From: a virus
Virus record (IMG/VR): IMGVR_UViG_3300010354_005757
Span: 1-20,459 of that record
Strand: one strand, 5' to 3'
Length of the DNA stretch: 20,459 nucleotides
The notes below the pieces were generated by a model. That model saw only the letters and a list, made by a program, of their open reading frames with translations, had not been told where the DNA came from and did not search any database. Shown here piece by piece: positions 3,594 through 19,260 of this stretch. Each line of letters opens with the position of its first letter. Position 1 is the stretch's first letter. The translations under genes and the position numbers were made by a program.

Positions 3594-3594
3594 A

Positions 3595-3855
3595 TTAAGT
3601 TGTCCAAGGACGTCCGTCAGTTAACGTTGTGGCACCGTCATCAGGTTCAATATCATTGGCATTGTAAGGGTTAGGCAAAAGATTCTTATCTAATACGTTG
3701 TTAGTTCGATACCATGGCGCGGTTGGATCTATTGCGCCGCTGATAGTTCCGTCGTTGGCTACAACCTTACCTTGACGTTTTGCTTCAGCAATGGCTAATT
3801 TAGCATCTTGGCGTTCTTGTCTAGTTGATAGGTGTGCTATTCCATTTGCTGACAT
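3595..3855 (-). CDS. Small protein of the virion block, 86 aa
   Basis: ATG at 3855 has AGGAG seven bases upstream, and the stop sits one base ahead of the next gene's start. The N-terminal half is a charged helix (STRQERQDAKLAIAEAKRQGK); the C-terminal half is Pro/Asn/Asp-rich and extended (DPTAPWYRTNNVLDKN, NPYNANDIEPDDGATT). This two-part layout suits a small adaptor that packs an extended arm against a partner. No motif identifies it. Its position between large structural genes suggests that it is a minor virion or assembly protein. Confidence 0.78.
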   Translation of the reverse strand: MSANGIAHLSTRQERQDAKLAIAEAKRQGKVVANDGTISGAIDPTAPWYRTNNVLDKNLLPNPYNANDIEPDDGATTLTDGRPWTT

Positions 3856-3856
3856 A

Positions 3857-4156
3857 TTAATACTCCTGTTGATTAGGATGCTGACTTGGATCTTTTACAC
3901 GTAGATCATGTGGATGTTTAGGCCCGTTAACTCCGCCGCCAGCATCTGTAGTCACAGCTTCGATGCCTGCGTATTCTTCGTTGGGTTCATTGGCGAATTC
4001 TCTACCGTTGATACCTGTTAAGAAATCAGCAATTTGCTTAATTCTGTTAGGATCGTCTTGTCCCATGTTAGATAGAGGACTTTGATCGTTGCCAGAGTCT
4101 TGTTCTGCGTGATCAATTACATCCGCCATTTTTCTAAGTAGTTCAGCTATTCTCAT
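3857..4156 (-). CDS. Small acidic protein of the virion block, 99 aa
   Basis: ATG at 4156 directly follows the preceding stop (TAAATG), with GAGGAG upstream at good spacing. The N-terminus MRIAELLRKMADVIDHAE is an amphipathic helix. It resembles the MRVIDIL and MKVHEII starts found elsewhere in this window but lacks the Glu-Ala cleavage position. The rest is acidic and low in hydrophobics, with a Gly-rich stretch (TTDAGGGVNGPKHPH) and a disordered C-terminus. Function unknown. It is co-directional and tightly spaced with structural genes. Confidence 0.78.
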   Translation of the reverse strand: MRIAELLRKMADVIDHAEQDSGNDQSPLSNMGQDDPNRIKQIADFLTGINGREFANEPNEEYAGIEAVTTDAGGGVNGPKHPHDLRVKDPSQHPNQQEY

Positions 4157-4444
4157 TTAATTCTCCTCATCTGGATCAATAAAATCTAGATGTTTAGCTT
4201 TAATAAAATTTATTAACGCTCGTCTCGCTGCCAAATATTGTGCTTTCACAGTTTCTAAATTACTAATAGTGTCGCTTGAAACACGATAGTTATATTCGGT
4301 CTGTGCAGCATTATAATCAAATGAGATACTTCTATATGCTGTAGCTAAATCAATACCTTCAATGTCTTGGCCATCATTGGCTGCTAATACATATAATCGA
4401 TCTCTTTCTGCTCTCCATTCGGGGCTAAAACTAAAATTATTCAT
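4157..4444 (-). CDS. Small helical protein of the virion block, 95 aa
   Basis: ATG at 4444 has AAGGA upstream and lies 3 bp after the stop of the 1309-residue gene. The sequence has two long helices (about residues 30-50 and 58-85, the latter TISNLETVKAQYLAARRAL) and an acidic tail. It begins MNNFSFSPEWRAERDRLY. The helical content and size suit a chaperone or connector for the large protein translated just before it, but this is inference from position. No known motif is visible. Confidence 0.78.
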   Translation of the reverse strand: MNNFSFSPEWRAERDRLYVLAANDGQDIEGIDLATAYRSISFDYNAAQTEYNYRVSSDTISNLETVKAQYLAARRALINFIKAKHLDFIDPDEEN

Positions 4445-4447
4445 ATA

Positions 4448-7400
4448 TTATCCTTGGCTTTCTGTCCACGATATACGTGATCTAATAGATTGGTTTTGCC
4501 CGCTTAGATTTCTCACAAATACAGTAATAAGATCAGGACCGTCTGGGTAGACTCTATTGCCACCTATAATACTATTTCCAAGATCTCGAATAATGTCAAT
4601 GGCTTGACTGGTCACAGCAGATCTTCCGGATCCTTCTTCAGCAAAAAAGCTCAACAGTGTGTCACCAGCGACTGGTGTTGGGGTTGTGCCACTAACCGAA
4701 TGATCAATATACTGACTGATACTACCATTTCCTGTTCTAATATAGTTGTTTTGATTGGTAAACAATGTGCTTTCTGTGTTGAGTCTCAGTGTAACTTGAA
4801 AGAATCCAGTACAGGCCACACTGACAGTTTTCAGTGTCAGCGCACTTCGATTGATTAAAGCTCTTCTGCCAAACTGATCTCCAATGCCGTTATCAACACT
4901 GGGCGCAAGACGTACACTGATCAAAGGAACTTCACTACCTGCTCCTACTGTCACTGCATTGTTGTTACCCGCGGTAAACAAGTATGATTTGTCTTCATCG
5001 AAACGACCGTCCATCATAACCGACACACCCCAGTGACTTAGACTCGGGCCGCAGTTTTGATTGAAACTCCAAATATTATCTCCAATAGCAGCTGAAGCAT
5101 TAGCTGATAATCCGTATTCGTTTCGCTGTGTGATAGTGAATCTTGTAGCGCTCTGTCCTTGTAAAGTTCCACCACTGCCCGGAACTCCTTTGGTATATCG
5201 CATTATTTCAAAGTTTATTGACACTCGACCAATGCGCGGAAAATCGTTGGCCTCTGTGTCCCACATATCGAATGTGGTGCTGCCGCTGCTAAGTACAGAT
5301 CTTAGAACACCACGTTTTGATCTATTATAAATTTCAAATCGTCCTGGCAAGTTACCTGACCGCATGTATGCTTCAGTATTGGTATTGTTGTTGATAAACT
5401 CATGACAGTAAGCAATAGAGCCGTCCAATGTTCTCATACCAAATCTTACCTTACCGGCACCATACCAACTGTAGTCCATGAACACCATCTGCATTTTATT
5501 AGCATCAAATATATAACCACTTGGTCCATTGCCGTCAAACTTATCAATATTAAACTCAGTTTGTCTCACTCGAAAATCTTGAGTAAGCAATATTCGTAAA
5601 CCAGATTCTGTAACAGTTTTGATTGCAGGTGCAGTGAATATCTGGGTGTCACTCTGTACCTGACTAACAATATATGACACACCTTTTATCACAATGTAAT
5701 CACCTTCTCTCAACTGGCTTAACCATTTGGTACCAGTGCCAGTGACCACAGAAGAATTTAAAGTTACAGATACAGAACCAGTAAGCTGAAATGTGCTGGC
5801 CCTACGAACAACAAACAGATCAGTACCATCATGCTCAAAAAACAATCCGTTTTGGTCGTCAAACATACCGTCACGCACCACTGCATCTTGCCAAGATTGT
5901 ACTACCACTCGGCCTACACCGCCTGGAGATGTGTCAGTGGGCTGAGTGCCAGCAGGCAATACCACAGTGAATGTTCTTGCATCAGCGATAGCACTCACTC
6001 GGAAAAAACCATTATATCTATTCAGGCCTGAAGTTACTGTGAATCCTGAAAGATATACGGCTGCACCTAATCTATTAGAATCAGGAGTAGCAAATCCATG
6101 ATCTTGATCTGTGGTAATGGTAAATGTAAAAGGATTAGTACCAGTCAAAACAAGTGTGCCAACAACATCGTAAGTGGGTTTAAACAGCACACCTGTTGAA
6201 AACTGTACCCCTTTACCTGATTGATATCTAAAATATCGCCTTGTTTGTCTAATGATCTGAGCGTTTGGACTGTTTGTTGCTGTAGTTATCGACACACCGC
6301 CATCATTGAATCTATGTGTAGGAAGTCCTTCGGGTCTTACATACACAAAAGTGTTGGCTGTACTAAGTGTGGCATTAGATCCGTAGTTAGTGAGATTTCT
6401 AGTTGTAAAAGTTACTTGTGTAGATGACGTGACATTTTTTATAACAAATGCACCTATATGAAGTGCTGATGCCTGTGTAGTATCTACAAGAAATATTGAG
6501 TTGCCTGGAAATAATGAATGAGGACTGGCAAAATTTATTGCGGCATCTGTTGTTCCAGAAATACTTGTTACACTATTGATAACCAGTTGTGAATTTTCAA
6601 AAAATCCACCAGTGTAGATAGTACTGTTAGCATTGTTATATACTGTGCCAGTCACTGTGGTCTTGGTTGTTGTCATGTCAAATGTAGTAGTGCTAACCAC
6701 ACTGCGAATAACTCCAGTAACATCTGCAGTTCGATTAAGTGTTTCTCTTATAGATATTGGTTGCCCAACAAAAAACGGCGAAACAGGTGCCTGTGCTACT
6801 ACTACTCTGACATTGCCGCCGCCGCCGGCTTGGCCGCCGCCGGCTCCTGCTGTAATTACACTAAATCCTTGTAGAGAATCCACTAGAATCTGCGCTTGTG
6901 CTGCGCTGTTGACGCCGTCACCGACCATCAACGTTGTGTTACCGTTATTGTTGAGAGTATATCGAACGTTGATATTACCAGAGTTGGCAAAGAAAGTAAA
7001 TTCTACAGTAGTTTGAAGACCGCTGCTACCTCCGTAGTTATAACCTCTCCATACCAGTCTATACTCGTTTGCTGTTGTTGAGCCGCCGTTTAATTGTAAT
7101 AGTCGTTTATCACCTTTAAAGAAACCTAAGTGTCTAAAGTTTGGACTATTTCCCACGCCCACGCCGCTGGGTTCTGTGCCTGGAATACTACCAGTGCCAC
7201 CGCCAAAACTGATATAACCATTAGTACCCACAAACAGCTGATTGTAAGTTGTGCCCAAGAACTGTATGTTGAATGGTAGAGACACTGTGACAAATGAGTC
7301 ATCACTATCACCACTGAACAACAACGACAGACCGCTAGTACCTTGAGTAGGCACACTAGCGTTGACAGATATGGCAGCGGGCTGAGTAGCAGCGGCAATA

Positions 7401-8377
7401 CCTGTGATACTGGTAATTTGACTACCGGTAAATGCTGGTTCGTTTGCTTTTAAAAATGTTGATGGATAGTTTTGAATTAATTCAACTGATTCCCATTTAG
7501 TTCCTTGACTGCTGTACTCAAAGTCAGTGTCCATCAGACTTTGAGGTGTGGATACACGTAGTTTTTCCACAGCGTCTTGGAATACAGAATCAGGTTTCAT
7601 GCTGGCACTACCTTCGTCATAGATGATGGTAATTTCGTCAGCAGCTTTCATGTTGCTAGTTGTAGAGAAGAAATACAGCGTAGTCAAATCATCAGGTAGT
7701 GATTTGTAAATGCTATAAGCAGTACGAGTGGCATCTGCAAAATTATACATGATAATACCACGTGTGCTGTTAACAATCAACGCAGATTTTTTAAGTGTAA
7801 GTTTGCCTCTTGTTTCAAGTCGTCCCCAAAATCCGTTTGGTGTTACTAGCGCTGGCAAAGATGTAAGGCCATTGATAATCACATCACTAATGCCAGTAAG
7901 TAAGGTAGTTACTCTGGCATTGGCTCCTCCTTCCCCGTTAGAGCCTGTTGTAATTTGAGGTTCTGCTGTTTGATATGCAGGACTAGCCGCGATACCAGGC
8001 AGCACATAGTTATTAATCAAGGATATGATAAAAGTATATACTGCTTGTTCAGGTAATCGATCTCCATCCACTTGAGGAACATCGCCAACCCAATAAAATG
8101 AAGCTATGTATCTAGTTTGTACGTTTCCATTGTATTTGATATCATTGAACAGTGCCTCTAACACATAGCCGATATCTCTTTCGCATTTGGCTGAGCTATA
8201 TTCGTAATCTTGAAATGGTGCAGTATTGGCTTGTATCTGAGCCTGAATATATGCTACAGCTTGTTTTGCTATAAAGGTTTTATTAGCAACCAATCTAGCA
8301 TAAGCGTTTGGAAATGCGTTAAATGTTTCATTAGACCCTGGAGTAAATGTGTAATTTATTATTTGTTTTTTTGCCAT
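4448..8377 (-). CDS. Giant virion structural protein, 1309 aa, probable host-contact appendage
   Basis: Regions seen in order: residues 25-130 are helical (YARLVANKTFIAKQAVAYI, then YSSAKCERDIGYVLEALFND), a layout I associate with marine T4-like structural proteins. Residues about 345-480 form a beta domain with LPFNIQFLGTTYNQLFVG, TNGYISFG and LVWRGYNYGG, similar in style to nidogen-like or lectin-like adhesion domains. A Gly-rich hinge (510-522) follows. Then come beta repeats of Ser/Thr/Val. A region at about 690-1020 (FDDQNGLFFEHDGTD; TEFNIDKFDGNGPSGY; NLPGRFEIYN) is paralogous to the 612-residue protein at 1755-3593. The C-terminal domain ends with ISWTESQG. No signal peptide or enzyme motif is seen. 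It starts with ATG at 8377. Receptor-contact is inference from the domain style and the fibre neighbours. Confidence 0.85.
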   Translation of the reverse strand: MAKKQIINYTFTPGSNETFNAFPNAYARLVANKTFIAKQAVAYIQAQIQANTAPFQDYEYSSAKCERDIGYVLEALFNDIKYNGNVQTRYIASFYWVGDVPQVDGDRLPEQAVYTFIISLINNYVLPGIAASPAYQTAEPQITTGSNGEGGANARVTTLLTGISDVIINGLTSLPALVTPNGFWGRLETRGKLTLKKSALIVNSTRGIIMYNFADATRTAYSIYKSLPDDLTTLYFFSTTSNMKAADEITIIYDEGSASMKPDSVFQDAVEKLRVSTPQSLMDTDFEYSSQGTKWESVELIQNYPSTFLKANEPAFTGSQITSITGIAAATQPAAISVNASVPTQGTSGLSLLFSGDSDDSFVTVSLPFNIQFLGTTYNQLFVGTNGYISFGGGTGSIPGTEPSGVGVGNSPNFRHLGFFKGDKRLLQLNGGSTTANEYRLVWRGYNYGGSSGLQTTVEFTFFANSGNINVRYTLNNNGNTTLMVGDGVNSAAQAQILVDSLQGFSVITAGAGGGQAGGGGNVRVVVAQAPVSPFFVGQPISIRETLNRTADVTGVIRSVVSTTTFDMTTTKTTVTGTVYNNANSTIYTGGFFENSQLVINSVTSISGTTDAAINFASPHSLFPGNSIFLVDTTQASALHIGAFVIKNVTSSTQVTFTTRNLTNYGSNATLSTANTFVYVRPEGLPTHRFNDGGVSITTATNSPNAQIIRQTRRYFRYQSGKGVQFSTGVLFKPTYDVVGTLVLTGTNPFTFTITTDQDHGFATPDSNRLGAAVYLSGFTVTSGLNRYNGFFRVSAIADARTFTVVLPAGTQPTDTSPGGVGRVVVQSWQDAVVRDGMFDDQNGLFFEHDGTDLFVVRRASTFQLTGSVSVTLNSSVVTGTGTKWLSQLREGDYIVIKGVSYIVSQVQSDTQIFTAPAIKTVTESGLRILLTQDFRVRQTEFNIDKFDGNGPSGYIFDANKMQMVFMDYSWYGAGKVRFGMRTLDGSIAYCHEFINNNTNTEAYMRSGNLPGRFEIYNRSKRGVLRSVLSSGSTTFDMWDTEANDFPRIGRVSINFEIMRYTKGVPGSGGTLQGQSATRFTITQRNEYGLSANASAAIGDNIWSFNQNCGPSLSHWGVSVMMDGRFDEDKSYLFTAGNNNAVTVGAGSEVPLISVRLAPSVDNGIGDQFGRRALINRSALTLKTVSVACTGFFQVTLRLNTESTLFTNQNNYIRTGNGSISQYIDHSVSGTTPTPVAGDTLLSFFAEEGSGRSAVTSQAIDIIRDLGNSIIGGNRVYPDGPDLITVFVRNLSGQNQSIRSRISWTESQG

Positions 8378-8394
8378 ATAAAGTCTCTTTGGTA

Positions 8395-8402
8395 TATTTA
8401 AC
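8395..8402 (-). promoter_or_regulatory. Possible weak late-type promoter box
   Basis: The minus strand reads GTTAAATA here, six of eight matches to TATAAATA, 17 bp ahead of the ATG at 8377. It overlaps the stop of the preceding gene. The same GTTAAATA occurs ahead of the aminolevulinate synthase gene. In an AT-rich genome, six of eight can arise by chance, so this is only a candidate internal promoter. Confidence 0.25.
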
Positions 8403-9357
8403 CCAACGCCACAGCATAGGCGATAGCAAGTGATTCCGAAACTCCAGAACTGTTACTGGCATTTATTGTTTGATTAGGCCATGATCCTGTAATAGAGATA
8501 TTAGTGCCTTGTATCAAACCCGGCGATGACGTTCCTGTACCACCGTTGGCTACCGGTAATGGTGTGCCTGATAACGAAACAGCAAGTGTGCCATTGGACG
8601 TAATTGGCGAACCTGAAACAGACAAGAATGTTGGTACAGTTAGTGCTACACTAGTGACTGTGCCTGCGCCACCAGCGGCACCTGTCCAAGGTACATTGAC
8701 AACAGCCTGCCCAGCAGCGTTCAGTTGAACACCATATGTTCTAGACGCAGTTGTGCTTACGGGTTCGGCTGCAACTGTTTGTACAGTATCACTGAACAGT
8801 TCTATTCCACCTAATACAGTAGAAGTTGCTGTTGGTAATGAATAGTTGTTAGCGTTTGCGGCAATACCATCAAGTTTGTTCTTGTCAGCAATACTCATAG
8901 TTCCTGCTGTAGTAGATGAAGCAGCACTGATAGAAATGACTGGGGCAGTGCCGCCTGAACTAATAATAGGTGCTGTGCCAGTTACACCAGTTACAGTACC
9001 GGTAGTACTACTGGTACCAGCACCGATGGCTGTACGAAACTCTGAATCACTTAATGCACTAACTGTATTGTCAGCGTTGATTCTTAGAAACTTTATTGCT
9101 GATGGGTCAGGTATTTGAACTAAATTTTGACCTACTGTGGTACTGGCACCATTGGCCAATGCGTTCCATGTGCCACCGTGTGCAAAATACATCTTGCCAT
9201 CGCTATGACTATGTACTATTGCACCGTGATAAGTAGTAGCACTAGGAAATGCTGCTTGATTGGCAAAGTAGAATGGAATCACATTGCCTGTACTAGCTCC
9301 AGTTATAGTTCCAACTACATCAAGTCCTGTAGGTATAGTAAAGTTCTTAATAGCCAA
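8398..9357 (-). CDS. Tail-fibre-like protein, 319 aa, TTG start
   Basis: The start codon is TTG at 9357, supported by AGGGAG seven bases upstream and by the N-terminus (MAIKNFTIPTGLDV), which parallels the neighbour's MANKNFVIENGLTV. No usable ATG lies nearby. Residues about 40-66 (YHGAIVHSHSDGKMYFAHGG) look like a small trimming or attachment domain. Residues 145-175 contain TAGTMSIADKNKLDGIAAN, a common phage tail-fibre segment. The remainder is Gly/Ser/Thr-rich beta structure (GTVTSVALTVPTFLSV, ending SLAIAYAVALG). Likely a trimeric fibre or fibre-tip protein. TTG may lower its dose relative to neighbours. Confidence 0.82.
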   Translation of the reverse strand: MAIKNFTIPTGLDVVGTITGASTGNVIPFYFANQAAFPSATTYHGAIVHSHSDGKMYFAHGGTWNALANGASTTVGQNLVQIPDPSAIKFLRINADNTVSALSDSEFRTAIGAGTSSTTGTVTGVTGTAPIISSGGTAPVISISAASSTTAGTMSIADKNKLDGIAANANNYSLPTATSTVLGGIELFSDTVQTVAAEPVSTTASRTYGVQLNAAGQAVVNVPWTGAAGGAGTVTSVALTVPTFLSVSGSPITSNGTLAVSLSGTPLPVANGGTGTSSPGLIQGTNISITGSWPNQTINASNSSGVSESLAIAYAVALG

Positions 9358-9368
9358 TTAATACTCCC

Positions 9369-11639
9369 TTAAACAGTAATGTAAACTTTTTGTACTTTAA
9401 CAGTGTTACCTGTGTTGGCGCCTGTTCCAGAAAGTACTACATTGGCTCCTACTATTGATGCGCTAAATGTCATTAGCGAACTAGCACCAGACCAAATACT
9501 ACCGTAGGGCGATATTGTAGCTACGGTGCCGTCATGTATTAATCCAATCTCAGTGATTTGATACTGAGTAAGTCCTGCGTTAGAAACACTAATAACATAT
9601 TTGGCAGCTCTATACGTAGCGTGAGCAAAGCTGTCTATTGATGTAGCTGAAGTGCCTACTGCTATTCCTGTTTGATCAAATATGATAGCATTAGTAATTG
9701 TAGGTCCACTGATCGATGGACTTGTTCCAAATACAAGAGCACCACTACCTGTTTCATCACTAATAACTCCTGCTAGTTCAGCAGATGTAGTCGACGATAA
9801 CGTACTTAATTTGTTACTTGTATATACAACAGTTCCGCCTGTTCCAAATGCCACAGAGCTAGAATCGGTGCCAGTAAATGTTAATGTGTTACTGGCTGTT
9901 AATGTTTTACCGTTGGCAATAGTTAGTGTACCTGTGCTAGAACTAACAGTTAACCCATTAATACTTCCGGTAGCACTTAAATCAAAAGCTCCAACAGTGC
10001 CGCTAATTTCTTCGCTGGTTATAGTAGCATCAGGAACATAAGTTAGTTTTTGTGTTGATCGATCAAAACCAAAGAAACCAATCTTGGCTGCTGTACCGTT
10101 GTGCCATCTAAAAGCAATACCTCTATCTTTTGAATCGTCGCTGGCCGGTGCTGTGTCTCCGCCTAAGACAAAGATAGGATCGTCAACAGTAATTACTGTG
10201 CTATTGACTGTAGTTGTTGTTCCATTAACAGTTAAATTGCCAGTAACAGTTAGGCTATTGTTAACAGTTGTTGTACCTGTAGCTGCACCAATGTCTAATG
10301 CCGTAGCTGCTGTAAATGCGCTAAATGTTTCTCCGGACTGGATGCTGGTAGTAAATGTTGGGCTAGTACCGAATACTAGAGCACCACTACCTGTTTCATC
10401 ACTAATAACTCCTGCTAGTTCAGCAGATGTTGTAGCAGCAAAGTTACTTAACTTTAAGCTTGTTGATGCTAGTGTACCAGAAGTAGGCAATGTAATGTTA
10501 GTAGCACCAGTTGTAGTAAGTGTTAACGCATGGCCACCGCTGGTACTAAAGTTGCCTGCTAGGTCAATGTTGCCTGCTAGTTTGATAGTTCTAGCTGCAT
10601 TAATAACATCTAATGTAATTGTTCTGCTGGCTGTTAAAGCAGTTGAGCTTGTAGCTGCTAGTACGACATCAAATGCTGCGCTGGTATCTCTAATACCTAA
10701 TGTGGTAATACCGCCGTGTGTTCCTCCATTAATAGTTGGAGAAGTTAAAGTTTTATTTGTTAATGTTTCGCTGCCTGCTATGGTAGCAAGTGTGCCAGTA
10801 GTTGGCAATGTAACTGATGTAGCACCAGAAGTTGTTAAAGTTACAGCGTGGCCGCCACTTGTAGAAAAGCCTGCTGAAAAATCAAGGTTACCTGCCAGTT
10901 TAAATGTTCTAGCAGCATTGGCAACGTCTAAGGTTAAAGTTCTATTAGCAGTCAGTGTAGTCGAGCTTGTGGCTCCAATTGTAACATCAAATGCTGCGCT
11001 GGTATCTCTCACACTTAATGAAGTTAACGAATCAACAGTACCTCCATTAATGTCAGGCGATGTTAATGTTTTGTTTGTAAATGTTTCGCTACCTGCTAGT
11101 GTAGAAAGCGTACCAGTTGTTGGAAATGTAACATTACTATTGCCAGTTGTAGTAAGTGTAATATTATGTCCGCCACTTACACTTAAATTACCAGCTAGAC
11201 TTAAAGTTCTAGCAGCGTTGACAACGTCAATTGTTAAAGTTCTATTGGCTGTAAGAATCGTTGAGCTTGTAGCAGCTAACGTTACATCGAATGCTGCACT
11301 AGTGTCACGTAAACTAAAAGCAGTTAACGAATCAACAGTACCACCGTTAACATCTGGAGTGGTTAAAGTTTTATTAGTAAATGTTTCACTGCCAGCCAGT
11401 GTAGCTAATGTGCCAGTTGTTGGTAGCGTTACATCAGTGCTTGCTGTAGAAGTTAATGTAATCGAATGTCCGCCGCTGGTAATTAAACTACCGTTGTTAG
11501 CGATAGTTAACGTAGCCGCAGTTGCCGGCGCTGTGATAGTAACTTTGTTAAAATGTCCTGTGGTACTAACATTATGGTCTGAAACTGTAAAATTTCCTAC
11601 CGTTAGTCCATTCTCAATGACGAAATTCTTATTTGCCAT
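9369..11639 (-). CDS. Repeat-built tail fibre protein, 756 aa
   Basis: Starts with ATG at 11639 after a weak ribosome site. Residues 83-390 consist of three repeats of about 100 residues (83-182, 183-288, 289-390), each starting GSET[FL]TNKTLT and containing RDTSAAFDV, SST, NAART and GTLxT; a partial copy lies at 56-82. A shorter motif, TTSAELAGVISDETGSGAL, appears twice (about 403 and 618). Residues 480-550 (TVITVDDPIFVLGGDT; DRGIAFRWHNG; IGFFGFDRS) resemble a domain I associate with cyanophage-type fibres. Residues 652-756 are collinear, with the same length, with the C-terminus of the 228-residue neighbour. This looks like a long fibre shaft plus distal domains. Repeat number is likely to vary between relatives. 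Confidence 0.85.
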   Translation of the reverse strand: MANKNFVIENGLTVGNFTVSDHNVSTTGHFNKVTITAPATAATLTIANNGSLITSGGHSITLTSTASTDVTLPTTGTLATLAGSETFTNKTLTTPDVNGGTVDSLTAFSLRDTSAAFDVTLAATSSTILTANRTLTIDVVNAARTLSLAGNLSVSGGHNITLTTTGNSNVTFPTTGTLSTLAGSETFTNKTLTSPDINGGTVDSLTSLSVRDTSAAFDVTIGATSSTTLTANRTLTLDVANAARTFKLAGNLDFSAGFSTSGGHAVTLTTSGATSVTLPTTGTLATIAGSETLTNKTLTSPTINGGTHGGITTLGIRDTSAAFDVVLAATSSTALTASRTITLDVINAARTIKLAGNIDLAGNFSTSGGHALTLTTTGATNITLPTSGTLASTSLKLSNFAATTSAELAGVISDETGSGALVFGTSPTFTTSIQSGETFSAFTAATALDIGAATGTTTVNNSLTVTGNLTVNGTTTTVNSTVITVDDPIFVLGGDTAPASDDSKDRGIAFRWHNGTAAKIGFFGFDRSTQKLTYVPDATITSEEISGTVGAFDLSATGSINGLTVSSSTGTLTIANGKTLTASNTLTFTGTDSSSVAFGTGGTVVYTSNKLSTLSSTTSAELAGVISDETGSGALVFGTSPSISGPTITNAIIFDQTGIAVGTSATSIDSFAHATYRAAKYVISVSNAGLTQYQITEIGLIHDGTVATISPYGSIWSGASSLMTFSASIVGANVVLSGTGANTGNTVKVQKVYITV
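10470..11393 (-). repeat. Three ~100-residue tandem coding repeats in a fibre gene
   Basis: Units read from the minus strand: 11094-11393 (100 codons), 10776-11093 (106 codons, with a 6-residue insertion DFSAGF near its end) and 10470-10775 (about 102 codons). The units match along their whole length at protein level, but DNA is diverged, so the duplication is not recent. They lengthen the fibre shaft. The longer inserts fall at the same relative place, consistent with loop variation. Confidence 0.85.
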
Positions 11640-11653
11640 AGACTAAATCCCAA

Positions 11654-11686
11654 TATATAACAGTATTTAGCTTAGGCTGTTATATA
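11654..11686. repeat. AT-rich inverted repeat between two fibre genes
   Basis: TATATAACAG (11654-11663) pairs with CTGTTATATA (11677-11686), a perfect 10-bp stem with a 13-base loop. It spans the end of the 228-residue gene, including its stop, and the leader of the 756-residue gene. Minus-strand transcripts would form a hairpin ahead of the latter's ATG. No U tract follows, so it does not look like a terminator. It could be an mRNA-processing or stability element. The loop contains GCTAAATA, a poor late-promoter match. Confidence 0.5.
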
Positions 11687-12358
11687 AAATCTTTGGACTT
11701 TTACTGAATTATTGGCAAATAAACTAGTAACTTTTAATTTAACATCTGCGCCTTCTACAGCAGCAGAAAACGTAGCTAGTGTGTTACTTCCTGTAGTTAT
11801 AGTATCGTAAGCAGCAATGTAAGCATTATTACCATTATGTACTAACATAATTTCTGTGCCCTGATACTCACCTAAATCTGTATTTGTAATGCTAACAATG
11901 TACTTGCCTAGTCTGTAATCGGCTTTGGGAAAACTGTCAATGTTTATAGTAGCTACACCAACTGTAGTGCCAGTTTGATCGTAGACTAATGGATTATTGT
12001 TAACAACTATATCGCCGCCAACATATAAATCACCACCAACTCCAGCACCACCAGTAACTGTTAGTGCTCCTGTGATAGGACTCACACTTAATGTAGTTGA
12101 TGTAATGCTAACATCGTTAGGTATTGGTCCGCCGTTATATCCCGGACCTTCTGGCCCTTGAATGCCCTGTATACCTTGATCGCCTTGCGGACCTTGTGGT
12201 CCTGAACTATAAGCTAGTTGGCTCCAAGTTTGTGTACCGTTTCCTACTTTAAACTTACCGGTATCTAGCTCTAGAGCAAGTTCACCTTCTGCTAATGTAG
12301 GATTGGCTGCAGTCCATTGTGCTGCTGTGGCTCTTCTAAATTGTATTCTAAGCGCCAT
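11672..12358 (-). CDS. Fibre protein with collagen-like stretch, 228 aa
   Basis: ATG at 12358 overlaps the preceding stop (TAATG) with GGAGGT upstream. The N-terminal domain (RIQFRRATAAQWTAANPTL; ELALELDTGKFKVGNGTQ) is the known phage-fibre N-terminal domain found in tropism proteins. A collagen-like Gly-X-Y run (residues 53-73, GPQGPQGDQGIQGIQGPEGP) follows. A linker then leads to a C-terminal domain (124-228, starting LVYDQTGTTVG) that matches residues 652-756 of the neighbour over its full 105-residue length. It is likely a virion fibre that shares its distal domain with the longer fibre. Confidence 0.85.
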   Translation of the reverse strand: MALRIQFRRATAAQWTAANPTLAEGELALELDTGKFKVGNGTQTWSQLAYSSGPQGPQGDQGIQGIQGPEGPGYNGGPIPNDVSITSTTLSVSPITGALTVTGGAGVGGDLYVGGDIVVNNNPLVYDQTGTTVGVATINIDSFPKADYRLGKYIVSITNTDLGEYQGTEIMLVHNGNNAYIAAYDTITTGSNTLATFSAAVEGADVKLKVTSLFANNSVKVQRFYITA

Positions 12359-13161
12359 TAAATACCTCCAGCATCGATTACTTCTAACCCGCCGTAATTA
12401 GTATCAGCGCCGCCAGCATCAAGGTTTCCTGCTAAAGAAGCTGCTGCCGAAATGGATATTTGTTTATACGGAGTTGCGCCCGGAACAGTTGTAATAGTGA
12501 CTCCGTTACCTGCTACAAATTCTATAGTATCTAATCCGGATGCCACAAGATCTTGTTGTCCGCTTACTTTCCAAGTTTTAAACGTGCTGTTCATCGATAT
12601 CTTCACAGCACCAGATCCTAAGTCTACAACATCGAAACCTGAATCAGTATCAAATCTAATAGTTGATACATTAGCTACACTATTAGTAATAACATTAGAT
12701 GTATCTATATTGCTTATTGTTATTGGATTTGGAATTGTAGGCTTATTAGTTAGATCGTTATAGCTACCGCTAAACAGAGTGGGTTTGTTAGTTAAGTCAG
12801 TGTAGCTACCGCTAAACAGAGTGGGTTTGTTAGTTAAGTCAGTGTAGCTACCGCTAAACAGAGTGGGTTTGTTAGTTAAGTCAGTGTAGCTACCGCTAAA
12901 TCCGCTAATAACTTGATTGTTTATTGTTATGGTGGTGCCATCAATTTTTACACCGCCTTTGACCGTTGTACTAGCGGTAGGAAGCACATAGTTTCCACCG
13001 CCGCCACCGCCACCTCCAATGGCTATACCGCCTGGGGTAAGTCCGTCACTGAGTCTAAAATCTCCTGTTTCTATATCAAAGAAAATATTGCCTTCTTCGC
13101 CTACAAAGTTTTCAATATCTTCTTTAACTAAACCTGCTTTAACTTTTCTAAGGAATCCCAT
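12358..13161 (-). CDS. Fibre-like protein with FSGSY repeats, 267 aa
   Basis: Begins with ATG at 13161 after GTGAGA. The N-terminal part (residues 12-47, KEDIENFVGEEGNIFFDIE, then TGDFRLSDGLTPGG) resembles phage-fibre attachment sequence. A run of eight glycines (49-56) acts as a hinge. Residues 88-143 carry four 14-residue repeats FSGSYTDLTNKPTL, a motif common in phage tail fibres; the last reads FSGSYNDLTNKPTI. A Ser/Thr/Val-rich beta domain follows, ending GGADTNYGGLEVIDAGGI. The stop overlaps the next start (TAATG). It is first in the run of fibre genes. The perfect DNA repeat shows active length change. Confidence 0.82.
   Translation of the reverse strand: MGFLRKVKAGLVKEDIENFVGEEGNIFFDIETGDFRLSDGLTPGGIAIGGGGGGGGNYVLPTASTTVKGGVKIDGTTITINNQVISGFSGSYTDLTNKPTLFSGSYTDLTNKPTLFSGSYTDLTNKPTLFSGSYNDLTNKPTIPNPITISNIDTSNVITNSVANVSTIRFDTDSGFDVVDLGSGAVKISMNSTFKTWKVSGQQDLVASGLDTIEFVAGNGVTITTVPGATPYKQISISAAASLAGNLDAGGADTNYGGLEVIDAGGI
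12740..12900 (-). repeat. 42-bp perfect tandem repeat inside a fibre gene
   Basis: Three identical 42-bp units (12763-12804, 12805-12846, 12847-12888) are flanked by a diverged part-unit on the left (12740-12762) and 12 matching bases on the right (12889-12900). Each unit encodes 14 residues (FSGSYTDLTNKPTL), so unit gain or loss keeps the reading frame. Perfect identity, including third codon positions, shows very recent expansion or ongoing homogenisation. Confidence 0.95.
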
Positions 13162-13162
13162 A

Positions 13163-13426
13163 TTATCTCACAAACGGGTTATTTCTAATTGACTTTGGTG
13201 GTGTTGGTTCACCTTCATCTTGAGTTAAATCTTGAATGACTGGACTGTCTTTGCCCTGTTCAGATTTTTTAAGTTCAATTTCTTGCTGTAAAGGTGGAAC
13301 AAATACAGGATTAGGATCTAACTCTTTTGGATCTTTCGGAGCTGAGTCCATTTCAATTTCCGGATCCCCGTCTCCGTTTATTTTAATTGTAATAGGTACA
13401 TTGATAGTAAATTCTCTGGCTCGCAT
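13163..13426 (-). CDS. Small conserved phage protein, 87 aa, first gene of the virion block
   Basis: The preferred start is ATG at 13426, with GGAGAA just upstream, rather than the in-frame ATG at 13477, which would cover the promoter. The protein opens [20 protein letters not shown], a beta-strand pair, then becomes acidic and proline-rich with [20 protein letters not shown] and a disordered tail ([14 protein letters not shown]). This VPPLQ-type pattern is one I associate with aquatic T4-like phages. Function is unknown. It may be a virion or scaffold-like adaptor. It stands directly behind a late-type promoter and ahead of the fibre genes. Confidence 0.8.
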
Positions 13427-13443
13427 ACTGTTCTCCGATATGA

Positions 13444-13451
13444 TATTTATC
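13444..13451 (-). promoter_or_regulatory. T4-type late promoter box
   Basis: The minus strand reads GATAAATA, seven of eight matches to the T4 late consensus TATAAATA, 17 bp ahead of the ATG at 13426. A ribosome site (GGAGA) follows within the predicted leader. It lies at the head of the minus virion block, where a late promoter is expected. Confidence 0.55.
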
Positions 13452-13459
13452 GTTAAATA
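13452..13459 (+). promoter_or_regulatory. Possible late-type box ahead of aminolevulinate synthase
   Basis: The plus strand reads GTTAAATA, six of eight to TATAAATA, only 7 bp before the ATG at 13467. No clear ribosome site is visible. If used, transcription would start at or next to the start codon, giving a leaderless message. The direct repeat ATATGATA (13438-13445 and 13457-13464) is nearby and could bind a regulator. No good sigma70 promoter is seen in this 40-bp gap. Confidence 0.3.
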
Positions 13460-13466
13460 TGATACA

Positions 13467-14666
13467 ATGATAAACAAAGAACTATTTCAAAATTTAATTG
13501 ATGATTTAAAAACTTCAGGAAAATATAGGGTTTTTAATGATATTGTAAGAGAAGCGGGTAAATTTCCAAAGGCTATTTGGTACGGTCCCTACGCTATAAA
13601 GAACATCGTTAATTGGTGCTCTAACGATTACCTAGGAATGGGTCAGCACAAAGTTGTCATAGACGCAATGCACACCGCTCTCGATCACACAGGCACAGGC
13701 AGCGGAGGGACTCGTAATATTGGCGGTACCAGTCACTATCATGTAGCACTTGAACACGAGCTTGCTGATCTACACCATAAAGAATCAGCTCTACTGTTTA
13801 GTAGTGCCTATGTGGCTAATGAGTGGACTCTTATAGCTCTAAGCAAAATTATTCCTAATATAGAATTTATATCTGATAGTAAAAATCATAACAGTTTGAT
13901 AGTAGGTATAACTCACAGCCGGGCTAGTAAGGTTGTATTTGAACACAATAATTTACAAGATTTAGAACAAAAGTTAAAGATAAGTTTTGCCCAAGAAAAA
14001 ACTCCTTGTATAGTATTTGAGTCTGTGTACTCAATGGATGGCGATGTAAGCCCTATTGCTGCAATATGTCAATTAGCAAAAAAATATAAAGCAATAACTT
14101 ACATTGATGAGGTACATGCTGTAGGATTGTACGGCCAGCGTGGCGGTGGCAAAGTAGAAGAATTAGGACTACAAAATGACATTGACATAGTCAATGGAAC
14201 CCTGGGAAAGGCGTTTGGCGTACAAGGAGGCTATATAGCTGCTGATGCTACGGTCATTGATGCTATTCGTAGCATAGCAGCAGGATTTATTTTTACTACT
14301 TCAATGAGCCCGGTGAGCTGTGCTGGAGCATTAGCAGCAGTAAAGTATCTTAAAAAGCACGACGAACTTAGACAAAAGCATCAAGAACGAGCTACAAAAT
14401 TAAAATACGAATTAACAAGAGCAGGAATCAAAGTAATGGATTCTACCTGCTCGCACATAGTACCTGTGTTAGTTGGCAATGCTATTAAATGTAAATCGAT
14501 CAGCGACTATTTGTTAAACGAATACGGTATCTATGTTCAACCAATTAATTATCCTACTGTGTCAGTAGGAACTGAGCGTCTACGATTTGCTCCAACCCCG
14601 TTCCACGATGACGGTATGATCGAAGATCTTATCAATGCGTTACAAGACGCTTTTAAAAAGTTTTAA
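13467..14666 (+). CDS. hemA: 5-aminolevulinate synthase (phage-borne)
   Basis: Pyridoxal-phosphate enzyme that condenses glycine and succinyl-CoA to 5-aminolevulinate, the first step of C4-pathway tetrapyrrole synthesis (haem, bacteriochlorophyll, B12). Length (399 aa) is the normal bacterial size and the alignment runs from end to end. Visible motifs: KYRVF with R21, [12 protein letters not shown] (50-61), [13 protein letters not shown] (76-88), SDSKNHNS with H141, SVYSMDGD (186-193), IDEVHAVG with D214 and H217, NGTLGKAF with the PLP lysine K248, and [13 protein letters not shown] with R373. The [12 protein letters not shown] and THSRA motifs separate it from BioF, KBL and serine palmitoyltransferase. 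The ATG at 13467 gives the family's usual N-terminus; the frame stays open upstream, but that part is antisense to the neighbour. It is the lone plus-strand gene here, and its end overlaps the convergent nuclease by 4 bp. Most similar enzymes are alphaproteobacterial. It looks intact and active. Confidence 0.95.
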
Positions 14667-15097
14667 TTACACCAGCTTTGTTTAGCGTCGCCGTAATATT
14701 CTCTAGCAAATCCATTAGCGATTAATGCGGCTCGTAGACTTTTACCATCTAGTATAATATCTCCAAGTACACGACCACCGAACTTATCCCACCCATATAA
14801 GGTAACCTGACGCTTTTGACTCGAAGCCACTGCCTGTTTGGTAAAGGCTGAGGCCATTTCTCCTCGCTGTGCTTCTGAAGGGCATTGAGCTCTGTGACCT
14901 TTTTCTGGAGTGTCCACTCCGAAGACTCTAACAGCCAATTCTGGTTTGAGTGGCGCAGGTAGAAAAGGGGCCGCTATAACTACAGTATCGCCGTCACTTA
15001 CTCGAACGATCTGTGCGTCATAGGTTACCCCCTGAGGTTGTTTTTGCGCCCATACTAGGCAAGGGAAAAGTAATAATGCTGTCAGTAATTTTTTCAT
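14663..15097 (-). CDS. Secreted thermonuclease-like (SNase) protein, 144 aa
   Basis: The start is ATG at 15097, not the longer in-frame ATG at 15151, because AAGGA lies at proper distance and a Sec signal peptide begins there: [17 protein letters not shown], with likely cleavage after VWA (residue 17). The mature part is a staphylococcal-nuclease fold: SDGDTVV with D37, RVFGVDTPE with R57, D62 and E65, and DKFGGR with R109. These match the metal-binding and catalytic residues of S. aureus nuclease (D21, R35, D40, E43, R87), so activity is expected. C72 and C143 could form a disulfide in the periplasm. An exact late promoter (15121-15128) lies just ahead. The gene overlaps the end of the converging synthase gene by 4 bp. 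A periplasmic nuclease could degrade competing or released DNA; that role is inferred. Confidence 0.9.
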
Positions 15098-15120
15098 AGT
15101 AGCAGTCCTTAAACTACTAC

Positions 15121-15128
15121 TATTTATA
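15121..15128 (-). promoter_or_regulatory. T4-type late promoter (exact TATAAATA)
   Basis: The minus strand reads TATAAATA, an exact T4 late consensus, in the 32-bp gap between the HNH gene and the nuclease gene. The start codon at 15097 lies 23 bp downstream with AAGGA between. The location ahead of a signal-peptide-bearing gene supports late expression of the nuclease separately from the HNH gene. Confidence 0.78.
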
Positions 15129-15129
15129 G

Positions 15130-15642
15130 TCACTGAACGTAATCTAACCAAGCTGGATCACGCACATTAAACGGTAATTGCCTACGCTTATTAACTAGTT
15201 CAAAATAGTCAGGTTTGTAGGGTTTAGTCTTAGGGCGAATCTTTTTATTATTACCTTTGTTAGCATTACAGGTACCGCAGGCAGTTACAGTATTTTCAAA
15301 AGTAGTCTTCCCGCCGTGACTAGTGGGTAGTACATGGTCTAGGGTACATTCTTTTTTAGATAGTAACTTTTCGCAGTATTGACATTTATAACTATCACGT
15401 AGAAAAACATTGCCTTTACTAAATCTAATTGAAGTTTTAGGCTTCATGTACTCGTGTAGCATTAGAATACTCGGAACTTGAGTTTCCCAACGGGCAGAAT
15501 GAACAATCCAATTTTCGTGAAATGCGATTACATGAGCCTTTTCAAGGACCATGTATTTTATTGCTTCCTGCCAATCAATTACTGACAGCGGCAGAAAGCT
15601 GACTGGTGCGCCGTCGGCGTTGAGTAGCAATGTGTCGCTCAT
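15130..15642 (-). CDS. HNH endonuclease, 170 aa
   Basis: A classic HNH domain: zinc-binding C87-x-x-C90, LDHVLPTSHGG with catalytic-region H103 and H109, N117 and the second zinc pair C122-x-x-C125, then NANKGNN. The N-terminal 80 residues (LLLNADGAPVSFLPLSVIDW, then EAIKYMVLEKAHVI) match the N-terminal extension found in free-standing bacterial and phage HNH proteins. A basic C-terminal tail follows (KKIRPKTKPYKPDYFELV). HNH proteins of this type occur in many T4-like phages as homing, packaging-linked or host-DNA-degrading nucleases; I cannot decide among these. ATG at 15642 has a weak ribosome site. A sigma70-type promoter upstream (15676-15704) suggests early or middle expression, unlike the late nuclease that follows. 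Confidence 0.9.
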   Translation of the reverse strand: MSDTLLLNADGAPVSFLPLSVIDWQEAIKYMVLEKAHVIAFHENWIVHSARWETQVPSILMLHEYMKPKTSIRFSKGNVFLRDSYKCQYCEKLLSKKECTLDHVLPTSHGGKTTFENTVTACGTCNANKGNNKKIRPKTKPYKPDYFELVNKRRQLPFNVRDPAWLDYVQ

Positions 15643-15675: not shown

Positions 15676-15704
15676 ATTATATATTCAAACTTAAAAATCA
15701 GCAA
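15676..15704 (-). promoter_or_regulatory. sigma70-type promoter for the HNH gene
   Basis: On the minus strand TTGCTG (15699-15704), a 17-bp spacer and TATAAT (15676-15681). The -35 box lies inside the last codons of the YqgE-like gene. The HNH start is 33 bp beyond the -10 box. It places an early/middle promoter inside an otherwise late minus-strand block. Confidence 0.65.
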
Positions 15705-16245
15705 GTACATTTTGAACAAATTCTTGTCCAGAACGCTCAACCGATTCACTCCATTGTTGCTGGCCTTCTCGTCCAAATACTATGTCATAGTCTGCTGAAC
15801 TAACAAGCCAGCTGTGATTGAGATTATAAGGATGTTTACCTTTGATTTCTTTTTCCAATTGGCCTGGAGTCCAACCGCATAATCCTACAAACAGTCTCCA
15901 GCGTTTTGGGCAGTTGCCCATAGCCATTTGAGTCAATATATCTACACTGGAACTTAAACTAAACTCATCGTTGATAGGTAATGTATTGTCACAACTCCAT
16001 TCGGCACTATGAAGCATGGTCATTGCTTTAGTGTTTACTGGCCCTCCGATATACATATAGCCTGGCATTTCTATGTGTAAGTTTGCCTGTTTGCCAAATT
16101 CTTTAATAGTTGTTTGACTCTTTTTATTTAAGACTAATCCTACACTACCATTTGAATGGTGCTCGGTAACATAGATAGCTGTCTTTTGCCAAAAGTTTCC
16201 CTTCATCAAGGGCGGTGCAATTAATAGGGTTCCTGTTAAATTCAT
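15691..16245 (-). CDS. YqgE/AlgH (UPF0301) family protein, 184 aa
   Basis: Family signatures are clear: N-terminal LTGTLLIAPPLMKGNFWQKT with YVTEHHSNGSVGLVLNKK (GLVLN 36-40), IGGPVNT (GGPV 67-70), LH (78-79), and a C-terminal FVGLCGWTPGQLEKEI. The length equals the usual ~185 residues. In bacteria the family is widespread and poorly understood; AlgH was named from alginate regulation in Pseudomonas. No enzyme motif is known, and the fold resembles a regulator-like alpha/beta protein. ATG at 16245 overlaps the stop of the hydrolase gene (TAATG), so the pair is coupled. Its place just after a cell-wall-acting protein, and ahead of the HNH gene, is unusual. Homologues occur in some aquatic phages (recollection, not checked). 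Confidence 0.88.
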   Translation of the reverse strand: MNLTGTLLIAPPLMKGNFWQKTAIYVTEHHSNGSVGLVLNKKSQTTIKEFGKQANLHIEMPGYMYIGGPVNTKAMTMLHSAEWSCDNTLPINDEFSLSSSVDILTQMAMGNCPKRWRLFVGLCGWTPGQLEKEIKGKHPYNLNHSWLVSSADYDIVFGREGQQQWSESVERSGQEFVQNVLADF

Positions 16246-18176
16246 TATGAAGATGCTTTAATATTACTGAGAGTATTTAATGCTGTCTTTACTGTAAGGC
16301 CTGCTTTATCGATTCCATTTTTAGCATACTTGCTCTGACCTGTCTGTGGATCAGGAAATGCTGCCCACACTCTAGCTATTTTATCTAAAAATTGTTCATC
16401 CGACATTTGACCACTTAACCATTGATCTAATCCGCATCGTCTTCTTAGATCAAAAATACATATTTCATCTTGAGTTTTTTCATCGAACACTGTGGTTTTA
16501 GGATCTAATCCCATTTGTTTTACAACTTCAGGCAAAGTACCAGTCTTAATATTTGTATACTGATATCGTCCAACAGCATCGCTTATTTTGTTTTTATCAA
16601 CCATAGCCTTTTGAAATTGGTATATTGTTTCTATAGTGGCGTCAGTTAGGCCGTTGATATTCTTAGAAGGAAAAACTATTTCGTAGTTTCCGCCGCTTTC
16701 GTATTTTGCAATGAAATCTAAAACTTTACCAACCTTGCCTTTGGTCACAGCATCCTGTTTAAGGCCTGCCATTGTAACTGCTGTTCCGCTTCCAGGCTTA
16801 ACATCCTTTTCTGAGCTTTTGACCAGTTTAGCTAAAACGTCGGGCTTGCTTTGTAACTGGGCATTTAATTGGTCAACTGTTGCTTGATCTGGTGTTCCTG
16901 TACTAGGTATCTTGTTTGCCTGTTGAAATTTTCGTATAGCATCAGATGTCTCTGGTCCTCTAATACCATCAACTCCGTGTTTAGGTAAAGGGAACCCTAG
17001 TGCAATCAATGCTTTTTGTACATCAGCAACTTCAGGGTTTCGATTACCTTGTGGAACTTCAACGACAAATGAGCCAGTTGGTTTGTCTGTTGTTGGTGTA
17101 CTGCTAGTAGGTGCTTCAGTAGGCTTATCACCAGATTTAACTGTATTAGCAGCTCCTGAATACCAACTCATTGGAGCGTGTATTCCATCTCCATTCTTAA
17201 CACTTAATGCTCCCATATCGATAACTTCAATACCGGATGGTAAATTTGCTTTGACTGTTTGTCTTAGTTGATTCCTATCTTTTGTAAATTTAGGATTGTC
17301 AGTTTCAGCAAATAATACATAATAAACTTTGGCTTTCTTTTGTTTTAGTTTATTAATTAAATCATTAATTCTTCCAGATACCCGTTGTTTATCTTGGCCC
17401 ATCATATCATTAGCACCAACGCTAAGAACAACGGTACTACCTTCAGCAACTTTTTCTATTGCACTGTCATTGTCTTGACTAAACGCACTTCTTCCGTCTG
17501 TGGTCAAATTTTCAAACTTTCCAGCTTTTGCGATAGCATTAGCATGACTATCACCAATAGCATAGATCTTAGCTGTGCCAGCAGGAGGATTATTTGAAGA
17601 ACCTGCGGTCCTAGGCGCACTCGATACAGCCGCTCGAAATATGGCTTTATAAGCATTGCCTCCAGGATGTATACCATCACCCTTGGCAATATTAGGATCA
17701 AATTTGTCTAACGGTCCTAAAAAGGTTGCTCCACTTGATGATGCTATAGATTGTAATTTATCATTCATTCCTGTGTAATCAACAGTCCATGTTTTTGATT
17801 GTGTATAAATTGTCGGTTTTTGAGGAGGAGTTTTACCGGGTCCTACACCTACTAACATTACTGTAGCGCCAGCATCTTTGAGCATTTTGATCTGTTGACT
17901 TACAGGCCCTAAATTTTCGTTTTGAAACTTTTTGCCATCTTCTAACTCTACATTGCCGCTATTGGCTGCTCCACTACTTAAAATTACTATAGCTCCCTTG
18001 GCCTTGCCGCTTTTTGCAAATGGGGAAACTAAGTTCTGTAGAATAAAGCTAGTGTTTTTACCAGGGTTGACATATTCTTGGCTTAGTCCGCCGGCGGCAG
18101 CTATGCCCTTAGCAATACTATCACCAATTACAAAAACGTTTTCGTTAGCTTCGCGTAAAATATCTATTACTCTCAT
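16245..18176 (-). CDS. Multidomain cell-wall hydrolase: two SGNH domains, peptidoglycan-binding and lysozyme-like domains, 643 aa
   Basis: Residues 1-10 (MRVIDILREA) look like a T4 capsid-targeting peptide with a cleavage site after E9 (L-R-E/A). SGNH hydrolase domain 1 (about 14-190) has GDS (S20) and GDGIHPGGN (D167, H170), but GAAN replaces GxND. SGNH domain 2 (about 203-346) has GDS (S210), GAND (N256) and GDGIH (D330, H333). A linker rich in Thr/Pro (350-368) precedes a peptidoglycan-binding domain (about 376-442: DVQKALIALGFPLP, VDGIRGPETSDAIRKFQ). The C-terminal domain (480-640) has FIAKYESGGNYEIVF with likely catalytic E493, AVGRYQY and GLDPKTTVFDEKTQD, typical of phage lysozyme/transglycosylase domains. 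The start is ATG at 18176 (TAATG). Expected action: remove acetyl or ester groups and cut peptidoglycan at entry or exit. Confidence 0.88.
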   Translation of the reverse strand: MRVIDILREANENVFVIGDSIAKGIAAAGGLSQEYVNPGKNTSFILQNLVSPFAKSGKAKGAIVILSSGAANSGNVELEDGKKFQNENLGPVSQQIKMLKDAGATVMLVGVGPGKTPPQKPTIYTQSKTWTVDYTGMNDKLQSIASSSGATFLGPLDKFDPNIAKGDGIHPGGNAYKAIFRAAVSSAPRTAGSSNNPPAGTAKIYAIGDSHANAIAKAGKFENLTTDGRSAFSQDNDSAIEKVAEGSTVVLSVGANDMMGQDKQRVSGRINDLINKLKQKKAKVYYVLFAETDNPKFTKDRNQLRQTVKANLPSGIEVIDMGALSVKNGDGIHAPMSWYSGAANTVKSGDKPTEAPTSSTPTTDKPTGSFVVEVPQGNRNPEVADVQKALIALGFPLPKHGVDGIRGPETSDAIRKFQQANKIPSTGTPDQATVDQLNAQLQSKPDVLAKLVKSSEKDVKPGSGTAVTMAGLKQDAVTKGKVGKVLDFIAKYESGGNYEIVFPSKNINGLTDATIETIYQFQKAMVDKNKISDAVGRYQYTNIKTGTLPEVVKQMGLDPKTTVFDEKTQDEICIFDLRRRCGLDQWLSGQMSDEQFLDKIARVWAAFPDPQTGQSKYAKNGIDKAGLTVKTALNTLSNIKASS

Positions 18177-18432: not shown

Positions 18433-18440
18433 TATTTATT
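18433..18440 (-). promoter_or_regulatory. Late-promoter-like box close to a start codon
   Basis: The minus strand reads AATAAATA, seven of eight to TATAAATA, but ends only 5 bp before the ATG at 18427. A transcript from it would be leaderless or start within the codon. It also touches the preceding stop. The match may be chance in AT-rich sequence. Confidence 0.3.
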
Positions 18441-19260
18441 AGCTTTCTTGTTCCAACCATTCATACACATTTAGCCACGATCTTTTACCTATAGTTTCTT
18501 TAAGTTTATCTAAATTAGCACAGGTTTTTTGTCTAAAACGCGGTTTTTCTTCGTCTGGAACAGGTATAACTTTTAATTCTACACCCTCTTGCTCAGCAAT
18601 AGTTTCTGCTATATCTAAAAAGCTATGTGCTAGTCCAGATCCAACATTCCAAATTCCGCTACCTTTAACATGTTCTATAAAATCTGTGTGTAAACGACAG
18701 ACATCTCCTACCCATGTCCAGTCTCTATAGATATGTTCAGCGTCTTCCCATACTTCAATGTAGCCCTGTTGTTTAGCCTGTTGTCTACATTTGTGTATAA
18801 AGTTTGCTCTACTACCTCTTAAGTGCATCCATTTTCCATAGACATTAAAGTATCTAAATCCCTGTACCATTATAGTGGGTTTTTGACTAAAGACCCAGCG
18901 ATCAAATAGATACTTGCTCCACGCATAAGGAGTCTGAGGACGGCATTCAGCATATTCTGAAAAATCTCTTGTATTGCCGTATACTGAACTAGTACTAGCA
19001 TACTGTAAGTGAACACCGTGATACTGGCATTCATCAAACAATCTTTGACTAAAGTCTAAATTTTGATTTAAAACTTTGTCTATACTAGATTCTCGCATGT
19101 CTGCGACAGCACCTAAGTGAATAACCCAATCATGGTCTCTTACATCTGGAAAATCATTAGGATCCCAATCCCATCCTTTTACTTCATAATTATTTTGCTT
19201 TAGCCAACTGGTCATATTACGACCGATAAATCCATTGTGGCCTGTAACTAGAATTTTCAT
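18439..19260 (-). CDS. NAD-dependent epimerase, HldD-like (ADP-heptose 6-epimerase type), 273 aa
   Basis: An extended short-chain dehydrogenase. Residues 6-13 hold the nucleotide motif TGHNGFIG (G7, G10, G13); S89-T90-S91-S92 and Y112-x-x-x-K116 (YAWSK) form the catalytic centre. Downstream segments match HldD/RfaD rather than the fucose or galactose epimerases: GFRYFNVYG (134-142), HLRGS, RDWTWVGDV, SGIWNVGSGLAHSF, IPVPDEEKPRFRQKTCANL. HldD interconverts ADP-D- and ADP-L-glycero-D-mannoheptose for lipopolysaccharide core. The protein is somewhat short against the usual ~310 aa. An exact late promoter lies just ahead (19277-19284), so it is made late, which would suit changing the host surface or glycosylating particles. 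Starts with ATG at 19260; a weak GAGG upstream is part of a small palindrome. Confidence 0.88.
   Translation of the reverse strand: MKILVTGHNGFIGRNMTSWLKQNNYEVKGWDWDPNDFPDVRDHDWVIHLGAVADMRESSIDKVLNQNLDFSQRLFDECQYHGVHLQYASTSSVYGNTRDFSEYAECRPQTPYAWSKYLFDRWVFSQKPTIMVQGFRYFNVYGKWMHLRGSRANFIHKCRQQAKQQGYIEVWEDAEHIYRDWTWVGDVCRLHTDFIEHVKGSGIWNVGSGLAHSFLDIAETIAEQEGVELKVIPVPDEEKPRFRQKTCANLDKLKETIGKRSWLNVYEWLEQES

Follow-up and report, generated by a model that had tools for sequence, protein, structure and literature searches.

Why should a tailed phage carry a gene for 5-aminolevulinate synthase (ALAS), and is the copy considered here unusual in its kind, its surroundings or its role? The window, that is, the whole stretch of DNA that was analysed, is a complete IMG/VR record of 20,459 bases and represents a fragment of a tailed phage. 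As to kind, the viral 5-ALA synthase vAlaS, encoded by valaS, has been described in both marine and freshwater phages (Wegner et al., 2024, Nat Commun; PMC11480375). Therefore, valaS of the window is not new in kind and adds one intact member to a known group, and an earlier sequence-only reading of this DNA was right to claim no novelty for the gene itself. What this member does show is how common and how fixed in position valaS is in freshwater tailed phages. The explanation that best covers the whole, with a probability of about 0.9, is that of a viral ALAS, whose role is most likely to sustain the supply of 5-aminolevulinate (ALA) and thereby tetrapyrrole synthesis.

The open reading frame of valaS is translated into 399 residues with no internal stop, which bears out the earlier description of a full-length enzyme. 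The frame stays open upstream as far as 13236, and the starts of homologues match the residue at 13467. Compared with its relatives, valaS shows dN of 0.12–0.15 with dS near or beyond saturation, a combination that points to strong purifying selection. Upstream of the gene, matches to T4-type late and sigma-70 promoters were little or no better than those in shuffled sequences. The features of the window are listed in Table 1.

Table 1. Coordinates of valaS and its neighbours in the window.
Feature	Position	Strand	Basis
Virion/tail-fibre block: 612-aa, 1309-aa phrog_5838, 319-aa, 756-aa and 228-aa fibre-like proteins	1755..13161	-	ORF list, domain/PHROG matches
Small gene upstream, part of the virion-side block and divergent to valaS	13163..13477	-	homologues in 6 loci
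valaS: 5-aminolevulinate synthase, 399 aa, complete active site	13467..14666	+	profile, structure-relative and residue comparisons
Codon of the PLP lysine K248 (ORF residue 248)	14208..14210	+	residue alignment
SNase-like nuclease, 3' end overlapping the valaS stop	14663..15151	-	PF00565; in 28 loci
HNH endonuclease	15130..15642	-	PF14279/PF01844; in 64 loci
AlgH/YqgE-like protein	15691..16245	-	PF02622; in 41 loci
Endolysin-like protein of 643 aa (GDSL-like and peptidoglycan-binding domains)	16245..18176	-	domain/PHROG matches
Nucleotide-sugar epimerase	18439..19260	-	PF01370, phrog_540

Is the product indeed an ALAS, and not another member of the same fold family? The ALAS profile TIGR01821 (NCBIfam) matches it over the full length (profile positions 4–396 of 402) with 579 bits against a curated cut-off of 338.6. 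The BioF model yields 318 bits (cut-off 426), the two KBL models 311 and 256 bits (cut-offs 460 and 493, respectively), and the serine palmitoyltransferase model is also under its cut-off. The top solved relatives are ALAS 7x98 and Rhodobacter capsulatus ALAS 2bwn, and solved ALASs are more than 50% identical to this kind of sequence. The catalytic residues named in the sequence-only reading, R21, H141, D214, H217, K248 and R373, all align to their counterparts in R. capsulatus ALAS and are invariant in 81 viral sequences; indeed, the whole PLP-lysine and substrate set of that enzyme (R. capsulatus R21, T83, N85, H142, D214, H217, K248, T365 and R374) is present. A related alpha-oxoamine synthase, KBL or BioF, using another acyl-CoA would share the fold, and among Pfam families the product passes the cut-off of the broad Aminotran_1_2 family only. 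Nevertheless, such an identity is very improbable and has been rejected: the ALAS model scores about 260 bits above the BioF model, BioF and KBL stay below their curated cut-offs, the substrate-site residues checked (R21, T82, N84, T364 and R373 in the window) are conserved, and long branches set BioF and KBL apart in the tree, where valaS falls among the ALAS enzymes. Profile cut-offs, tree and flanking phage genes thus agree with the earlier assignment of an ALAS in a phage; as judged from sequence, 13467–14666 encodes ALAS and not BioF or KBL, and the enzyme is predicted to be catalytically active.

The tree combined viral ALASs taken from virus records with the ALASs of five bacterial-assembly contigs and of 28 alphaproteobacteria, and with BioF/KBL rows. 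All the viral sequences and the five contigs form one clade (support 100/100, stem length 0.81), which falls outside the 28 sampled alphaproteobacterial ALASs. A similar separation of viral and cellular ALASs was found in the published tree (PMC11480375). The single clade would fit one capture by phages, followed by spread. A search of 50,697 phage records found no isolated phage relative with an ALAS that was at least 60% identical; the top hits reach 35%, and those that are annotated are KBL or BioF genes of hosts. Four of the five bacterial-assembly contigs look like phage (one of them, L084, less closely examined). For example, L086 carries ribonucleotide reductase and thyX-like genes beside ALAS, and L083 and L085 carry g2, a gene common to this phage group. 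The bin Rhodobacteraceae Water_Bin34 (G042; contigs C102, C116 and C183) carries three more ALAS genes besides a typical alphaproteobacterial one; its loci L084 and L086 are viral-type, and hemO and a bilin reductase also occur in it. Here, phage DNA has been binned with a bacterium.

Then, is the genomic setting of valaS peculiar to the window? The ORF map agrees with the earlier description of a plus-strand gene between a virion block and a nuclease/endonuclease/wall-hydrolase block, set amid a run of minus-strand genes (the small gene just upstream is listed from a TTG, and more probably starts at an ATG near 13427). Relatives of the ALAS are encoded at 486 or more sites in viral contigs, the best 80 being 77–85% identical. 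Forty loci, the window counted among them, have enough flanking sequence for comparison, and in 27 of these 40 virion-type genes precede valaS and two or more members of the same downstream block follow it, every one of them in minus-strand orientation. Because this arrangement is so widely shared, the setting of virion block, valaS and HNH-AlgH-lysin genes is the norm for this phage group, and the earlier view that the setting was the interesting part did not survive the comparison of gene positions. In the nearest relatives, 2–3 kb of extra genes lie between valaS and the SNase gene, while the two adjoin in the window. The AlgH/YqgE-like gene is without a PHROG match and is thus unusual among known phages, yet it occurs in 41 related loci. 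A DUF454 (YbaN) membrane protein (e.g., L003:11929-12363 and L083:5191-5631) is encoded no more than about 7 kb away from valaS in 31 of the 40 well-flanked loci and is absent from the window; in marine-type loci its gene lies directly beside valaS. The same comparison bears on whether the reading frame is cellular DNA misclassed as viral. The window is merely a 20-kb fragment, which leaves some room for such an error, but its flanks carry virion, tail-fibre and endolysin-like genes, the setting is common to 27 of the 40 well-flanked loci, and the virus records that hold relatives reach 356 kb in length; we regard a cellular origin of the fragment as scarcely credible.

The fragment also bears on the claim that valaS is placed alone. 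The nearest long relatives, G002 (91 kb) and G003 (87 kb), whose ALASs are 85% identical to that of the window, carry adjacent genes for a haem oxygenase (hemO) and a ferredoxin-dependent bilin reductase at a distance of about 29 kb from valaS, in the direction in which the window extends for just 13 kb; G024 shows about the same spacing. Neither gene was found within the 20-kb window, which stops short of that distance. Consequently, valaS probably looks alone because the fragment ends, and this claim is the weak one in the earlier description. Of 39 virus records, 10 carry hemO and exactly these 10 carry the bilin reductase as well, and neither was found in long relatives of 147, 185 and 142 kb. 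Since some long relatives are without the pair, a bilin end-product is not general for valaS phages, although absence from a record is weak evidence because the records are fragments. IscU is encoded in 13 of the 39 records, including all 10 with hemO and bilin reductase, and this co-occurrence links iron-sulphur assembly either with the haem genes themselves or with a core region that they share. In the G002 region, IscU (L127:5102-5509) is found with IscA (L127:4825-5151). Isocitrate lyase is encoded in seven of the 39 records (full-length at L126:1914-3122 and in six other records); speculatively, its products, glyoxylate and succinate, could feed both ALAS substrates. G002 also encodes a CsgG-like curli export protein, a full-length DnaK and a GMP reductase (L126:11361-12575, L126:16808-18727 and L126:18766-19791, respectively).

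What could the phage gain from the enzyme? We infer timing and benefit as follows. The product of valaS would keep ALA supply, and hence tetrapyrrole synthesis, going during the shut-down of host gene expression. Related phages could use a haem oxygenase of their own to open the resulting haem and a bilin reductase to reduce the product, so that, where both genes are present, some of the haem may end up as bilin and iron. In the sequence-only reading a C4-pathway host is an assumption. Both C4- and C5-pathway bacteria have been proposed as hosts of valaS phages (PMC11480375). The neighbouring genes permit no host call, because the helicase of relative G002 is nearest to Pseudomonas jumbo phages (51%) and the virion protein of the window is nearest to cyanophages (37%). 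For the idea of a methanotroph host, no pmoC match was found in the 39 records, where a control search was equally silent, so that the negative carries little weight.

The sequence-only reading had further proposed that a viral copy could bypass host control; in its stronger form, a feedback-proof ALAS would have been selected to escape control by haem in C4-pathway hosts. The same argument was made in the 2024 paper, where the haem feedback residues were missing in many vAlaS (PMC11480375). In the window, R. capsulatus His342 corresponds to Lys341, and each of the 81 viral sequences has Lys, Arg or Leu at this position; the protein of the window ends in DAFKKF with no C-terminal Cys, that is, no equivalent of Cys400. 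However, the His342 position of the 28 alphaproteobacterial ALASs is mostly Leu, Arg, Lys or Gln, in a viral versus cellular comparison that covered this one of the two positions. Loss of His342 is not a virus-specific trait, because most of the cellular enzymes also do without it. Thus, the absence of the His342 and Cys400 equivalents stands, while its reading as a viral adaptation is doubtful: the residues speak weakly for an escape from haem feedback, and selection for such an escape is possible at best. A sustained ALA supply is the role that we prefer.

A copy outside the window is more novel than the window gene and, if the reading given below is true, outweighs it in importance. It lies on the remaining one of the five bacterial-assembly contigs, from Neisseriaceae bacterium PsAf, which lives in symbiosis with the sucking louse Polyplax serrata and has a 1.81 Mb draft genome of 85.8% BUSCO completeness (PMC9376444). 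Its ALAS (WNLJ01000010.1, 62385–63572 of the contig, L082:4001-5188; 555 bits to TIGR01821) is 71% identical to that of the window and falls inside the clade of freshwater viral sequences (99/97, and 99/92 for a smaller group with 13 viral sequences), on a long terminal branch of 0.59. Unlike the window gene, it sits in a bacterial chromosome contig and not in a phage, and its neighbours are cellular, namely an AmgK-like kinase, a patatin-like phospholipase, an efflux outer-membrane protein and RbbA-like transporters. Over its first 46 kb, the 96-kb contig runs collinear with G156, a genome of 1,607,491 bases, most proteins matching at 70–94%, and the remaining 50 kb, including ALAS, have almost no close counterpart there; it is possible that the contig is chimeric at the 46-kb border. 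The size of G156 matches that of the sister symbiont HaMa, 1,607,498 bases (PMC9376444), which we presume it to be.

In the draft genome of PsAf, neither glutamyl-tRNA reductase (best 45 bits, in an AroE-like frame) nor HemL (138 of 527 bits) was found over the cut-off, and hemB is present (450 bits). The family survey found glutamyl-tRNA reductase in 79 of 83 genomes and this ALAS in PsAf only. G156 (L230–L309) has hemB at 894925–895923, and the 1.6 Mb examined yielded no viral ALAS, glutamyl-tRNA reductase or HemL. The simplest reading of these sequences suggests that a viral ALAS was gained in a lineage that had lost the C5 route. We give roughly even odds to the fuller proposal, resting on a draft assembly and on limited bacterial sampling in the tree, that the viral gene passed to the louse-symbiont lineage and now replaces the lost C5 pathway as the sole entry to haem synthesis. 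If true, PsAf would be a natural complementation test, in which a viral metabolic enzyme sustains an essential cellular pathway, and would document gene flow from phage to bacterium with functional replacement.

Since a viral-type ALAS persists in this betaproteobacterium without detectable C5 enzymes, such an enzyme may serve in a cell of C5 lineage. This lends something to the proposal that the main effect of the enzyme, in hosts with the C5 pathway, is to save glutamyl-tRNA for protein synthesis; the draw of ALA on tRNA-Glu is probably small, however, and as the main benefit we consider such sparing rather unlikely. The proposal was put forward in the 2024 paper on vAlaS (PMC11480375). Sustained ALA supply remains our preferred account for the phages.

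Among known systems, the closest is the vAlaS of Wegner et al. (2024), which shares with the window a phage-borne ALAS, an intact active site and a freshwater large-phage setting, as well as a ‘broken cassette’, with hemO and bilin reductase at other places in related genomes. As compared with the published description, the window copy differs in being without hemO/pcyA in its 20-kb fragment and in having relatives with a fixed setting beside the HNH-AlgH-lysin block. The vAlaS of the freshwater phage CB_2 rescues the 5-ALA auxotroph E. coli ST18 (PMC11480375). Compared with the sampled alphaproteobacterial ALASs, the window enzyme is 51–58% identical and lies in a separate clade. It would be expected to catalyse the same reaction as R. 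capsulatus HemA (PDB 2bwn), with which it shares all the tested catalytic residues, whereas it has Lys in place of the haem-ligand His342 and lacks the C-terminal Cys of that enzyme.
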